The notes beneath the pieces were generated by a model. The model saw nothing but the letters and a program-made list of their open reading frames with translations, was not told the DNA's origin and did no database searches. Below are positions 2,184-6,553 of a stretch of DNA of 24,856 bases, one piece after another. The stretch covers positions 1-24,856 of IMG/VR virus record IMGVR_UViG_3300009705_000107. The stretch is one strand, 5' to 3'. A program made the position numbers and the translations under genes. The stretch's first letter is position 1; each line of letters begins with the position of its first letter. This stretch comes from a virus.

Positions 2184-2273
2184 ATGCTACACAGAGTACT
2201 GTATATCGCTGGTAAAAACAACTTTAGTCATGTGTGCCGTTCAACAAAAAGACGTATAAATAACACTATATGA
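2184..2273 (+). CDS. Possible 29-residue small ORF between terminase and the next gene
   Basis: An ATG at 2184 opens 29 codons ending in a TGA that overlaps the next gene's ATG (ATGA at 2270-2273). The peptide starts MLHRVLYIAGKNN and is basic. The stop/start coupling is typical of this genome, but there is no clear ribosome site, the peptide matches nothing I know, and the late-promoter box lies inside it. It may be chance. Confidence 0.15.
   Translation: MLHRVLYIAGKNNFSHVCRSTKRRINNTI
2255..2262 (+). promoter_or_regulatory. T4-type late promoter TATAAATA
   Basis: A perfect match to the T4 late promoter -10 element, recognised in T4 by gp55 sigma with gp33 and the sliding clamp. It ends 7 bp before the ATG at 2270, so transcription would begin about at the start codon. 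No SD is present. It is the best evidence here that the 2270 gene is expressed late, with virion proteins. Confidence 0.65.
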
Positions 2274-4234
2274 ACCCAAAAAACTCAGAAGATTTATTCA
2301 ATAAAATTAGATCGCAGTTTACAAACATTAGACTAGGTGATGAAAACGGTGCCGCAACAGCGGATCCAAGCAGTGCTGTATTTTTTGAATTTGAGTTCAA
2401 AGAAGATGCAGACACATTTGGTTCAGTTAGTGTATCGATAGCAGAAGACGGTACTATGAAAGTATTTTACAACCGTAATTTAGTGGATAAAATTGATGAG
2501 GATAGCAAAGACGAATGGTATGCATTCCTTAAAGAGCTTAAAGACTTTGCAGTAGAGCACCAATTATCCTTTGATGTGCGTGATATTACTAAAAGTAACC
2601 TTACAAAGCAGGATTATCAAAATATAGCAGACACGAATCAAACGGTAAATAACGATGAGATGTCAGAAGAACTAAACAGAATTACTAAATTAGCAGGTGT
2701 TGAAAAGGCATCAGTTGCAGAAGGCTTAACCGGCACTGCAAAACGTTCATACGAGAACCTAGAAAAAACAAGATTAATAATTAGACACAAAGGCAAAGTT
2801 GACGAAACTGTGCCAGGTGCAAGATCAAGACAAATACAATCACTATACATAGAAAACGGTGATGGTGAAAGATTCAAATATCCACTAACACATTTAGCAG
2901 GTGCAAGAGCAATGATGAGACACGTGTCAAATGGTGGAAGACCACATGATGAATTTGGCGAACACATTGTTAGAACATCAGAAGATATAGCAAAATTAAA
3001 TTCATTCTCAAGATACGTTACTAACAAAGATCAATTAAATGATAATGCAGGTGACATTATTGAGCAAACTAAAATGAAACTAGAAAATTTAAGAGGCTAC
3101 ATGAAAAATCTTTCTAATCAAGGACACTATGAAAATGCAAGTAAAGATTTTAAAACTTCAGAAGAACAAGTATTAGACGATGAAACTGTAAACAAAATGA
3201 GAGAGAAATTCACAATGAAAAACTTAGACAGCAGAGTTGAAGATGCACTACCACTTATCAACAGAATTATGAGTGAACTAGAAGCACCCAGAGAAGAAGA
3301 ACAAGTTAATGAATTAGACCCAGGTGATGAGCCAATTGATGCACCAATACAACCAGATGTAGATCACGGAGCAGTGGTACAAGGTTATTTGACCGATCCA
3401 GAGAAAAAATTAATTCTAAGAAAAGATGACTCTGCTGATAAAATGTTATCTGTAACAAAATTTAAAGACAAAAATACTATGTTAGGTTCAATACTTTCTG
3501 ATATAGCATCAAGATTAATTTCAACACCAAAAGGTGAAGAGGACAGAGTGGCAAACTTTGCTTCTAGAGTTGCAGACGGAATAGAGCAAGAAGGTTCTGC
3601 TATGTTTAAACCGGGACCAGACTATAACAGCAACAAAAAAATTGCAGTACAGTTAGCAAAAAGATATTTAGATGACTACAAAAAAATGCAATCAAATCCA
3701 GAATACAAAGACGAAGTGAGAAAAGATCCTCAAGACATAAACAAATTTAAAAATATTAAAGGCCTAGATTACGATAACAAAGGCAAAGCAAAAGAAGAAA
3801 CAGCATTTGAATCATGGGCTGATCAAACTGCAAACGAATATGCAACTGAACCAAAAGATGAAGAAGATAGAAAAGAAAAATTAAAAGCACTAAACGACAT
3901 TCAAAAAAATCCAGACTTAATGAGCGATCCTAGAATGAAAGCTGAAGTAATCAAAAGAAGAATGGAACTGCAAAGAGCAAAACAAGAAGGTGTTGCATTT
4001 GAAGATCTTAAACCTTATATTGAACAGCATCTAAAAGACGGTGGCGATCAATCAACTGCACTTGAAACAGCAATTGAACAATTTAATACAGAAGACAATG
4101 CTCCAGATATGGTTGTTAGAGATCCGGAAGATGAAGCAGAAGATAAAGAACAAGAAGTAGCAAAAGATCAAGTAGACGCTGAAAAGATCAATACAGAATT
4201 AGATAGAATTAAGCAACTAGCTAACTTATCTTAA
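2270..4234 (+). CDS. Conserved marine T4-like phage protein, 654 aa, probable virion/head-assembly protein
   Basis: Function is not known to me. The N-terminal part (about residues 1-115: FFEFEFKEDAD, RNLVDKIDEDSKDEWYAF, SFDVRDITKSNLTKQD) resembles a protein family I recall as common in T4-like marine phages. A middle segment (~150-280) is basic and well conserved in appearance (RLIIRHKGK, ARSRQIQSLYIENGDGERF). The remaining half is very acidic and rich in Lys, Glu, Asp and Gln, likely helical and partly disordered. The motif LNRITKLAGV (135-144) recurs in degenerate form at the extreme C-terminus (LDRIKQLANLS, 644-654), and KLAGV opens the 1-540 fragment. The perfect late promoter just upstream and the terminase neighbour support a late, structural or scaffold role. 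The start has no SD. Confidence 0.85.
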   Translation: MNPKNSEDLFNKIRSQFTNIRLGDENGAATADPSSAVFFEFEFKEDADTFGSVSVSIAEDGTMKVFYNRNLVDKIDEDSKDEWYAFLKELKDFAVEHQLSFDVRDITKSNLTKQDYQNIADTNQTVNNDEMSEELNRITKLAGVEKASVAEGLTGTAKRSYENLEKTRLIIRHKGKVDETVPGARSRQIQSLYIENGDGERFKYPLTHLAGARAMMRHVSNGGRPHDEFGEHIVRTSEDIAKLNSFSRYVTNKDQLNDNAGDIIEQTKMKLENLRGYMKNLSNQGHYENASKDFKTSEEQVLDDETVNKMREKFTMKNLDSRVEDALPLINRIMSELEAPREEEQVNELDPGDEPIDAPIQPDVDHGAVVQGYLTDPEKKLILRKDDSADKMLSVTKFKDKNTMLGSILSDIASRLISTPKGEEDRVANFASRVADGIEQEGSAMFKPGPDYNSNKKIAVQLAKRYLDDYKKMQSNPEYKDEVRKDPQDINKFKNIKGLDYDNKGKAKEETAFESWADQTANEYATEPKDEEDRKEKLKALNDIQKNPDLMSDPRMKAEVIKRRMELQRAKQEGVAFEDLKPYIEQHLKDGGDQSTALETAIEQFNTEDNAPDMVVRDPEDEAEDKEQEVAKDQVDAEKINTELDRIKQLANLS

Positions 4235-4263
4235 TAAAACCTCCATATTACCAATAATAGTAG

Positions 4264-4292
4264 TAGACAACTGATAAATATCAGTGTATATT
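4264..4292 (+). promoter_or_regulatory. Possible sigma70-like promoter for gene 32
   Basis: TAGACA (4264-4269) and TATATT (4287-4292) are separated by 17 bp, each one mismatch from the sigma70 consensus. A start near 4299 would leave a ~63-nt leader and remove part of the hairpin at 4284-4316, so this promoter and the late-type box at 4273 would give different leaders. Confidence 0.4.
4273..4280 (+). promoter_or_regulatory. Late-promoter-like box GATAAATA upstream of gene 32
   Basis: One base from TATAAATA. It lies inside a short palindrome CTGATAAATATCAG-like element (4271-4284, CTGATA/TATCAG arms). A start about 6 bp downstream would put the first transcribed base at the foot of the leader hairpin 4284-4316. 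Confidence 0.4.
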
Positions 4293-4353
4293 ATGTACTA
4301 TATGTCTAATATACACATAGGCAAACTAAAACAAACATAGGCACACAAGGAGG
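4284..4353 (+). promoter_or_regulatory. Structured gene 32 leader: hairpin, A-rich linker, strong ribosome site
   Basis: A perfect 10-bp inverted repeat, GTGTATATTA (4284-4293) and TAATATACAC (4307-4316), encloses a 13-nt loop. The loop's TATGT (4301-4305) could pair with ACATA at 4335-4339, giving a pseudoknot. ACATAGGCA occurs twice, 20 bp apart (4315-4323, 4335-4343), with an A-rich unstructured stretch between. The strong ribosome site AAGGAGG (4347-4353) follows 8 nt before the ATG. In T4, gp32 represses its own translation by binding a leader pseudoknot and then the unstructured RNA over the ribosome site. The same architecture here suggests the same control; this is inferred. Confidence 0.55.
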
Positions 4354-4361
4354 CTTACATT

Positions 4362-5354
4362 ATGGCATCATTAGCTGAAATAAGAGCGAAGTTAAAATCT
4401 CAAGAAGTTAATCGCTCAACTTCACAAACAGGCGGAGACAACGCCATCTACCCACATTGGAATATAGCAGAAGGCTCAGAAGCAGTTGTTAGATTCTTAC
4501 CAGATAAGGATACGAACAATACTTTTTTCTGGACTGAAAGAAACATGATCAAACTACCTTTTGCAGGTATTAAAGGTCAAACTGATTCTAGACCAGTGCA
4601 GGTACAAGTACCATGCATGGAGATGTATGGCAAAACTTGCCCAGTACTAACGGAAGTTAGACCATGGTTCAAAGACAAGAGCATGGAAGACATGGGAAGA
4701 AAATATTGGAAGAAAAAATCTTATATTTTCCAAGGTTTTGTTACAACAAATCCACTAGCAGAGGACTCAACACCTGAGAATCCAGTCAGAAGATTTATAA
4801 TTGGACCTCAGATCTTTAACATCATTAGAAGTGCATTGATGGATCCAGAGATGGAAGAAATGCCTACTGATTTGGTTAAAGGTGTTGATTTTAGAATTAA
4901 CAAAACTACCAAAGGTGGTTATGCTGATTACTCAACATCAAAATGGTCAAGAAGAGAACGTGCATTAGATGAGGCAGAGAGAGCCGCAATCGAAACACAT
5001 GGGTTACACAACCTAAGTGACTATAGACCAAAAGAGCCAACTGAAGCAGAAGTTAAAATAATTGCAGAATTATTTGCGAAATCTGTCGAAGGTGAAGCTT
5101 ATGATCTTGAGCAGTATGGACAATACTTTAGACCAGCGGGAATGGCTTATCAAGCTAAACCCCAAGTATCAGTTCCAACAGCAAGTCCAGTAGCGGCGGC
5201 ACCAGTAAGTGCACCAGTAACTGCAACTGCACCTGTTACAGAATCTGCACCAGCACCACAACCAACAGCGGCGGCTACGGCGGCTCCTGCAGGTGATAGT
5301 GCCAAGAGAGCAGAGGACATCTTGAAACTAATAAGATCAAGACAAGCAAAATAA
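4362..5354 (+). CDS. 32: Single-stranded DNA-binding protein gp32
   Basis: gp32 coats single-stranded DNA during replication, recombination and repair and recruits UvsX/UvsY and the helicase loader. The N-terminal LAEIRAKLKSQ region corresponds to the cooperativity domain. The core (about 30-245) has the family blocks YPHWNIAEGSEAVVRFLPD, TFFWTERNMIKLPF, VPCMEMYGKTCPV, RKYWKKKSYIFQGFV and FRINKTTKGGYADYSTSKW, rich in the aromatic/basic residues that contact DNA. Only two cysteines (C85, C93) lie where T4 has a Cys3His zinc site, so zinc binding is doubtful. Residues 265-312 form a Pro/Ala/Val/Thr linker, and the protein ends in AEDILKLIRSRQAK rather than the long acidic tail of T4. It has the strongest SD in the window and a structured leader, and is followed by a hairpin. 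Confidence 0.95.
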   Translation: MASLAEIRAKLKSQEVNRSTSQTGGDNAIYPHWNIAEGSEAVVRFLPDKDTNNTFFWTERNMIKLPFAGIKGQTDSRPVQVQVPCMEMYGKTCPVLTEVRPWFKDKSMEDMGRKYWKKKSYIFQGFVTTNPLAEDSTPENPVRRFIIGPQIFNIIRSALMDPEMEEMPTDLVKGVDFRINKTTKGGYADYSTSKWSRRERALDEAERAAIETHGLHNLSDYRPKEPTEAEVKIIAELFAKSVEGEAYDLEQYGQYFRPAGMAYQAKPQVSVPTASPVAAAPVSAPVTATAPVTESAPAPQPTAAATAAPAGDSAKRAEDILKLIRSRQAK

Positions 5355-5367
5355 TCTGACATTTTAC

Positions 5368-5397
5368 CAAGGCCCTGATGTTGACGTTAGGGCCTTG
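5368..5397 (+). terminator. Hairpin after gene 32 (candidate terminator/processing site)
   Basis: CAAGGCCCT (5368-5376) and AGGGCCTTG (5389-5397) form a perfect 9-bp stem with a 12-nt loop, only 13 bp after the gp32 stop. It is the most GC-rich element around. There is no run of T after the stem, so it may be a weak or factor-dependent terminator, an RNA 3'-end stabiliser or a processing site. Confidence 0.6.
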
Positions 5398-5409
5398 ATA
5401 TGCTATTAT
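5381..5409 (+). promoter_or_regulatory. Sigma70-like promoter for uvsX, nested in the hairpin
   Basis: TTGACG (5381-5386) and TATTAT (5404-5409) with a 17-bp spacer, both one mismatch from consensus. The -35 box is in the hairpin loop and the spacer contains the right stem arm. The predicted start is about 5416, giving a ~16-nt leader with AAAGGA (5419-5424) before the ATG at 5432. Confidence 0.6.
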
Positions 5410-5431
5410 AGGATATACAAAGGATAAAATT

Positions 5432-6553
5432 ATGACAAAAGTATTTGACGCAACAAAGTTTAGAAAGAGTATCACAAAATCAATCCAAGGTTTAGGCATA
5501 GGATTCAGCGATCCCACTGATTGGATCAGCACAGGAAATTATGCATTGAACTATTTGATGACAGGCGATTTCAACAAAGGAATTCCGCTAGGCAAAGTTA
5601 CTGTATTTGCAGGAGAATCAGGAGCAGGTAAATCATACATAGCCGCAGGAAACATTATTAAGAATGCACAAGAGCAAGGTATATTTGTTATACTTGTTGA
5701 CACAGAGAATGCACTAGATGAAAAATGGTTACAAGCATTAAAAGTGGACACATCAGAAGATAAACTTTTAAAATTAAGTATATCAATGATTGATGACGTA
5801 GCAAAAACTATTTCAGAGTTTATGAAGGGTTACAAAGAAGCACACGCAGATGACAAAGAAGGTGCACCTAAAGTACTATTTGTTATAGACAGTTTAGGTA
5901 TGATGCTTACACCAACTGACGTTAATCAGTTTGAAGCGGGTGATATGAAAGGTGACCTAGGTAGAAAACCTAAGGCATTGACTGCACTTGTGAGAAACTG
6001 TGTTAACATGTTCGGTTCATGGAACGTAGGCCTTGTAGCAACTAACCACACTTACGCATCACAGGATATGTTTGACCCAGATGATAAGATATCAGGTGGA
6101 CAGGGATTTATCTATGCAAGTTCAATCGTTATTGCAATGAAAAAACTTAAATTAAAAGAAGATCTTGATGGTAACAAAGTTACAGACGTAAGAGGTATTA
6201 GAGCGGCATGTAAAGTTATGAAAACAAGATATGCTAAACCGTTTGAAGGTGTACAGGTTAAGATTCCATACGAAACAGGAATGAACCCGTACAGTGGACT
6301 AGTGGACCTATTTGAAAAGAAAGGTATACTTGTACAGACTGGAAACAGGCTAAAATACATTGATAAAGCGGGTAAAGAACATATCGACTTTAGAAAACAA
6401 TGGATAGGTGATAAATTAGATATGCTAATGGCAGACTTCAAAGAATCAACAGACTTTGCTGACAAAGAAGATACTGATGCTCCTATTGAGGTTGATATAA
6501 AACCTAAAGCAAAAACTAAAAAAGCAGAACCAATTAAAGAAGAAAAGGAATAG
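5432..6553 (+). CDS. uvsX: UvsX, RecA-like recombinase
   Basis: UvsX forms filaments on single-stranded DNA and carries out strand exchange in recombination-dependent replication. The RecA core shows Walker A GESGAGKS (61-68), the VDTENALDE segment (89-97) and Walker B VLFVIDSL (148-155). Further along come the DNA-binding loop region DLGRKPKALTALVRN and VGLVATNHTYA, the usual C-terminal half of phage RecA proteins. At 373 residues it is close to T4 UvsX (391). The acidic/Lys-rich C-terminal tail (KPKAKTKKAEPIKEEKE) is variable in the family. The start is supported by AAAGGA 7 nt upstream and a nearby promoter. It is followed after 3 bp by the next gene. Confidence 0.96.
   Translation: MTKVFDATKFRKSITKSIQGLGIGFSDPTDWISTGNYALNYLMTGDFNKGIPLGKVTVFAGESGAGKSYIAAGNIIKNAQEQGIFVILVDTENALDEKWLQALKVDTSEDKLLKLSISMIDDVAKTISEFMKGYKEAHADDKEGAPKVLFVIDSLGMMLTPTDVNQFEAGDMKGDLGRKPKALTALVRNCVNMFGSWNVGLVATNHTYASQDMFDPDDKISGGQGFIYASSIVIAMKKLKLKEDLDGNKVTDVRGIRAACKVMKTRYAKPFEGVQVKIPYETGMNPYSGLVDLFEKKGILVQTGNRLKYIDKAGKEHIDFRKQWIGDKLDMLMADFKESTDFADKEDTDAPIEVDIKPKAKTKKAEPIKEEKE

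Follow-up and report, generated by a model that had tools for sequence, protein, structure and literature searches.

A conserved hairpin at the predicted late start of gene 32 mRNA in giant T4-like phages, probably a stage-specific RNA control element

In phage T4, gp32 represses its own translation via an unstructured UUAA(A) leader (PMC3014915), and RB69 has a counterpart (PMC535899). The T4/RB69 operator combines a pseudoknot with an A+U leader that is unstructured and carries UUAA(A) repeats, on an RNA with an RNase E-processed 5' end at -71. Gene 32 mRNA is also the most stable T4 mRNA, with structure lying just inside the 5' end made by RNase E; a T4 review asks how far T4-style control of this gene extends beyond close relatives, RB49 being without the pseudoknot (PMC3014915). 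More generally, RppH, like 5'-tethered RNase E, depends on a single-stranded 5' end, 5' hairpins impede RppH, and an added hairpin stabilised the bla mRNA (PMC3997798). The consensus of T4 late promoters, TATAAATA, spans -13 to -6, and in Aeh1 the box is CTAAATA, starting at -12 (PMC1524935), whilst CBB and GAP32 have ATAAATA before structural genes (PMC5259590).

Here we analysed the leader of a gene 32 homologue in a 24,856-nt stretch of viral DNA (the window), in which a uvsX recombinase gene follows the gp32 gene. The closest cultured relatives are giant phages (the PA5oct group, Phosso, Atu_ph07 and the RaK2 group), at approximately 41–54% identity. The inverted repeat, the TATGT in its loop, the repeat, the A-rich stretch, the ribosome site and both promoters listed by the initial annotation were all present where it had placed them. 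The features of the locus are as follows.

4250..4263, + strand: block ACCAATAATAGTAG, 5' of the weak -35, which may serve the sigma70-type promoter as an activator or UP-like element (candidate, from clade co-occurrence)
4264..4292, + strand: sigma70-type (early/middle) promoter, -35 TAGACA at 4264-4269, 17 nt, -10 TATATT at 4287-4292 (10/12 matches)
4273..4280, + strand: T4-type late promoter box GATAAATA, positions -13 to -6 (clade conservation, box enrichment, T4 spacing, PMC1524935)
4286..4293, + strand: left arm of the conserved 8-bp stem, GTATATTA, whose first base G4286 is the predicted late +1; the sigma70 -10 also falls here
4294..4306, + strand: hairpin loop, differing between relatives (13 loop sequences across the 30 clade leaders), containing the predicted sigma70 start
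4307..4314, + strand: right arm of the conserved stem, TAATATAC (conservation and pairing tests)
4315..4323, + strand: first ACATAGGCA repeat (sequence, AGGCA enrichment)
4324..4346, + strand: A-rich unstructured leader holding the second ACATAGGCA repeat at 4335-4343 (composition, folding)
4347..4353, + strand: Shine-Dalgarno AAGGAGG, 8 nt before the ATG at 4362, largely accessible in both predicted RNAs
4362..5354, + strand: gene 32 homologue, single-stranded DNA-binding protein of 330 aa (phrog_1192, E=3.6e-63; Pfam PF08804 gp32 above cut-off)

Leaders of gp32 homologues were collected by four scans of viral contigs, giving 137 distinct leaders and then 56 further ones (approximately 190 in total), of which 30 belong to the window's own clade. 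This leader family belongs to a large group of giant T4-like phages, mostly uncultured. Two long relatives, of 300 kb (G001) and 117 kb, were used for comparison across other genes. An Rfam search of the leader region gave no match at any family's gathering score, and a search of the open-access literature found no account of a gp32 leader in which a late box, a sigma70-type promoter and a hairpin are arranged in this way.

The late promoter box was assessed through its distribution. ATAAATA occurs twice in the window (10.6 occurrences expected), both times intergenic and on the + strand. ATAAATA and CTAAATA are concentrated in the 4–7% of non-coding DNA of the 300-kb and 117-kb relatives, often approximately 20 nt before start codons, and late-type boxes are enriched upstream of genes in these relatives. 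A TAAATA/TAAGTA box is found in 121 of the 137 leaders in the first set, the other 16 lacking one at the expected place. In box, spacing and placement before genes this matches the T4-type late promoters (TATAAATA, the CTAAATA of Aeh1, the ATAAATA of CBB/GAP32), and on these sequence features the box in the gp32 leader is a promoter; its start site is a predicted one, as T4 spacing places the late +1 at the sixth base past the box, G4286 in the window. Unlike those promoters, the window's box is overlaid on a sigma70-type promoter. The sole other ATAAATA of the window (2256-2262, region 2255-2270) lies 7 nt before the ATG of an ORF for a 654-aa virion protein; by the T4 rule late RNA would begin nearly at that ATG, and the true start codon may be further in.

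The overlapping sigma70-type promoter is also widespread, with a TTGAC-like -35, a spacer of 16–18 nt (mostly 17) and a TATAAT-like -10 in 133/137 leaders. Its predicted start in the window, at about 4297-4300, falls within the hairpin loop, upholding the proposal of the initial annotation that the sigma70-type RNA would lose the left arm. In 104 of the 133 leaders the left arm and the -10 overlap, and all representatives of this layout have their predicted start in the loop or the right arm. We at first favoured a hairpin tied to the sigma70 -10 on account of this overlap, but dropped the idea because the L195/L199/L214 clade has its hairpin at the late +1 and its sigma70 promoter entirely 3' of the hairpin, a layout that ties the hairpin to the late start. 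Thus, as far as promoter sequences predict, the late RNA has the hairpin and the sigma70-type RNA is without it, across clades of differing promoter layout.

Upstream of the -35, an ACCAA block (4250-4269 region in the window) is a possible activator site, judged from its co-occurrence within the 30 clade leaders: it accompanies a TAGAC[AT] -35 in 27/27 cases and is absent in 3/3 with the consensus TTGACA. The 300-kb relative (L177-L185; e.g., G001:101105, 141085, 169466) carries a repeated early-type promoter, TTGACC-17-TATAAT, and at several of these promoters, not at all, TTTGCTATAATATACACATAGCAAA forms a palindrome over the -10.

The hairpin appears in the window as a perfect 10-bp inverted repeat, GTGTATATTA at 4284-4293 and TAATATACAC at 4307-4316, with a 13-nt loop. 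Single-sequence RNA folding of this leader was no better than that of shuffled DNA (z = -0.67), so the case for the hairpin rests on relatives. In all 30 clade leaders (G/C/A)ATAAATA, 5 nt and GTATATTA are invariant, and the right arm reads TAATATAC in 28 of them, the other two having single A-to-G changes that give G.U pairs. The 10-bp stem of the initial annotation was retained in part: its inner 8 bp are conserved in the clade, whereas its two outermost pairs (4284-4285/4315-4316) are unconserved and lie upstream of the predicted late +1, which leaves the inner 8 bp as the functional stem. Since the arms are nearly invariant within this clade, the covariation reported below comes from other clades.

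We assessed the position of the stem relative to the late box, picked by a fixed rule, in 55 lineages less than 60% identical to each other, with relatedness handled by clustering alone. Stem strength peaks at box +6, exactly the late +1 (mean 14.35 vs 8.50 for shuffled leaders, z=17). Taking +1 as predicted by the T4 rule, the late 5' end has no unpaired nucleotide in 36/55 lineages and at most two in 46/55, whilst control start points gave 15–40% on this measure, with the exception of +16 at 72%, which we take to reflect clades with a later stem. Phasing to the late +1 was predicted before the L193-L279 leaders were collected, and these leaders likewise show the hairpin at the late +1. The typical order in approximately 190 leaders is a T4-type late box, 5 nt and a stem starting at the late +1, in agreement with the earlier suggestion that the late box would start the RNA at the foot of the stem, as pairing in the conserved stem begins at the predicted late +1. 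There are departures from this order: in L097 and its kin the late box precedes the -35, and the strongest stem begins approximately 11–15 nt inside the predicted late RNA, followed by a U-run and more terminator-like, and in L072 and L063 the stems reach a few nt upstream of +1.

Pairing between the arms was assessed by swapping them between lineages. Anchored on the late box, own arms scored 17.1 against 11.1 for swapped arms (sd 0.41, maximum 13.1 in 5000 permutations), and anchored on the sigma70 -10, 9.76 against 7.08 (sd 0.24). At non-Watson-Crick stem positions, read on the coding strand with G.U and A.C scored alike, G.U outnumbered A.C by 28:4 (p=2e-5) and 69:17 (p=1e-8). This bias argues for pairing in RNA rather than a DNA palindrome, as a DNA dyad gives no reason for it. 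In one close clade, double changes affect 3/8 pairs with 100% pairing kept (e.g., GTTGGCC...GGCCAAT vs GTTAGCC...GGCTAAT). Covariation among relatives, which the initial annotation had named beforehand as the check that could refute the stem, was therefore found, and the swap tests, G.U bias and phasing bear out its claim of a conserved hairpin. By these comparisons of sequences, the gene 32 leader hairpin is real and conserved, and it is also an element rebuilt many times in evolution.

Among the other promoters of the window and the two long relatives, none pairs a comparable hairpin with a late box, and we rejected the hairpin as a general promoter feature on that basis. In the 300-kb relative a hairpin sits on or beside +1 at two other late promoters (L179:12042-12120 and L178:838-900), ahead of a gene for an Hsp20 (PF00011) and one for an unidentified 128-aa protein.

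Downstream of the hairpin, leader tails are 43% A and fold no better than shuffles. AGGCA is found 1.81 times per leader (0.06 in shuffles) and 6-mer repeats 2.76 times (0.68), across 74 lineages; most leaders of the first set carry (A/T)GGC(A/T) repeats together with the hairpin, a Shine-Dalgarno and ATG. Two or more AGGCA within the upstream 75 nt were found for gp32 and one other gene each in the window and the 300-kb relative, the other case in the window overlapping coding sequence, and for no gene of the 117-kb relative. AGGCA as a general leader motif was rejected, there being no enrichment elsewhere. By their sequence distribution the AGGCA repeats are a real and conserved feature, essentially specific to gp32, and gp32 or some other regulator may bind them. 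With and without the hairpin, the ribosome site is predicted to be open, hence the hairpin is not a direct lid. In L097, L109 and L135 leaders, a GC-rich stem with a U-run has the -10 in its left arm, i.e., a promoter nested within a terminator-like hairpin, and a second small ATCTAA/TTAGAT hairpin lies between AGGCAAC repeats.

The initial annotation had also likened the leader to the T4 gene 32 operator. The layout agrees: the gene is the same, the structured element (at about -76 to -48) precedes an A-rich leader that is open, carries repeats and spans the ribosome site, and there is structure on or close to the 5' end of the functional mRNA. The leader differs from the T4/RB69 operator in being a plain hairpin of unrelated sequence with AGGCA repeats and no supported pseudoknot, and in that its predicted 5' end is set by a late promoter and not by RNase E processing. 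The proposed pseudoknot, between TATGT in the window's loop and ACATA downstream, did not hold up. In a search of 64 representatives for contiguous loop-tail pairing, complementarity was 4.13 against 4.23 in permuted pairs (p=0.85), and the window's ACATA match was no better than that of loops paired with the tails of other phages; an H-type pseudoknot upstream of the ribosome site was accordingly set aside as unsupported. The gp32 leader of the PA5oct group (L083:1371-1500, Pseudomonas phage sp. 30-3; the same in L281-L284) can form an H-type pseudoknot with a AGTTTTGC/GCAAAACT stem, whose loop CTAACCC pairs with GGGTTTAG approximately 9 nt further on and still upstream of the ribosome site. 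The stretch is identical in five members and hence offers no covariation.

The gp32 leader hairpin is probably a stage-specific RNA control element of late mRNA. We favour, with a probability of roughly 0.55, a late-mRNA-specific 5'-terminal hairpin that would most likely serve as a protective cap against 5'-end-dependent decay, a look suggested by its phasing to the first nucleotide, the free loop and arm sequence and the open ribosome site. The sigma70-type promoter would produce an early/middle mRNA starting inside the hairpin, or beyond it in other clades, and so without it. From the late promoter would come an mRNA in which the 8-bp hairpin starts to pair at nucleotide 1 and is followed by approximately 47 nt of open A-rich leader with the AGGCA repeats and ribosome site. 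With 0–2 unpaired nucleotides, such a 5' end would block RppH-type pyrophosphate removal and 5'-end-dependent decay by RNase E (both enzymes being assumed of the hosts), and would keep late gp32 mRNA long-lived in a period of heavy replication and recombination with its ribosome site left exposed. The 0–2 unpaired nucleotides and open ribosome site recall the 5'-terminal stem-loop stabilisers of ompA, papA and the engineered bla mRNA; here, unlike those, the putative stabilisation would affect late transcripts of one gene only, through two nested promoters. As in the T4 gene e and I-TevI leaders, promoter placement leaves one transcript class without the 5' arm, but there the hairpin is on the long early RNA and hides the ribosome site, whereas here it is on the late RNA and the site is open.

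A tentative alternative is an autogenous translational operator, in which gp32 would nucleate at the 5' hairpin or the AGGCA repeats, spread over the open leader and cover the ribosome site, with repression late-specific because the hairpin is in late RNA only. The T4/RB69-like layout, with a structured element at about -70 to -45 and then an unstructured short-repeat leader over the ribosome site (PMC3014915, PMC535899), speaks for such an operator, as do the conserved, essentially gp32-specific AGGCA repeats. The unsupported pseudoknot and freely varying loops speak against it, and a nucleation site need not begin exactly at +1, a phasing for which a protective 5' hairpin accounts at least as well as autoregulation. 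The operator is compatible with protection, and both could hold. The stronger version, in which the nested promoters give a late-only gp32 operator of hairpin and lineage-specific AGGCA, and hence a promoter-selected on/off switch of SSB autoregulation rebuilt many times, is in our view doubtful.

We consider it unlikely that the hairpin is a terminator or insulator against read-through from the upstream virion gene, at which full-length RNAs would fold and stop and RNAs starting inside would escape. The stems of L097/L109 and L063/L072 do fit, being GC-richer, flanked by A- and T-runs and extending past +1, but the window has no T-run, a terminator scan of 3000-6500 finds none, the U-run is seen only in other clades, and stem position follows the late +1 in most lineages. 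Very improbable is a DNA palindrome to which a dimeric repressor would bind across the sigma70 promoter's -10/+1: the left arm does cover the -10 in those 104 leaders, but the strand asymmetry of G.T over A.C (the 28:4 and 69:17 above) is unexpected for a DNA dyad and led us to reject one, the hairpin is kept where the sigma70 promoter no longer overlaps it (L195/L199/L214), and arm sequence is unconserved between lineages. That the repeat arose by chance in AT-rich DNA would agree with the unremarkable single-sequence fold, but is refuted by the swap tests and opposed by the other comparative ones, and we give it next to no credence.

The giant-phage leaders have a conserved T4-like layout that was repeatedly rebuilt, but their hairpin is a plain one, fixed to the late start site, and their repeats are gp32-specific. 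The arrangement makes a precise prediction, namely a 5' end at the first base of the stem and the hairpin in late RNA only, and the cultured Agrobacterium phage Atu_ph07 (L273/L084) shares the combination of late box and hairpin. In its leader the predicted late +1 is occupied by GTAGATAATTTCTAC, which 5 nt separate from GATAAATA, and the place of AGGCA is taken by a repeat of the TTAGCACAA type.
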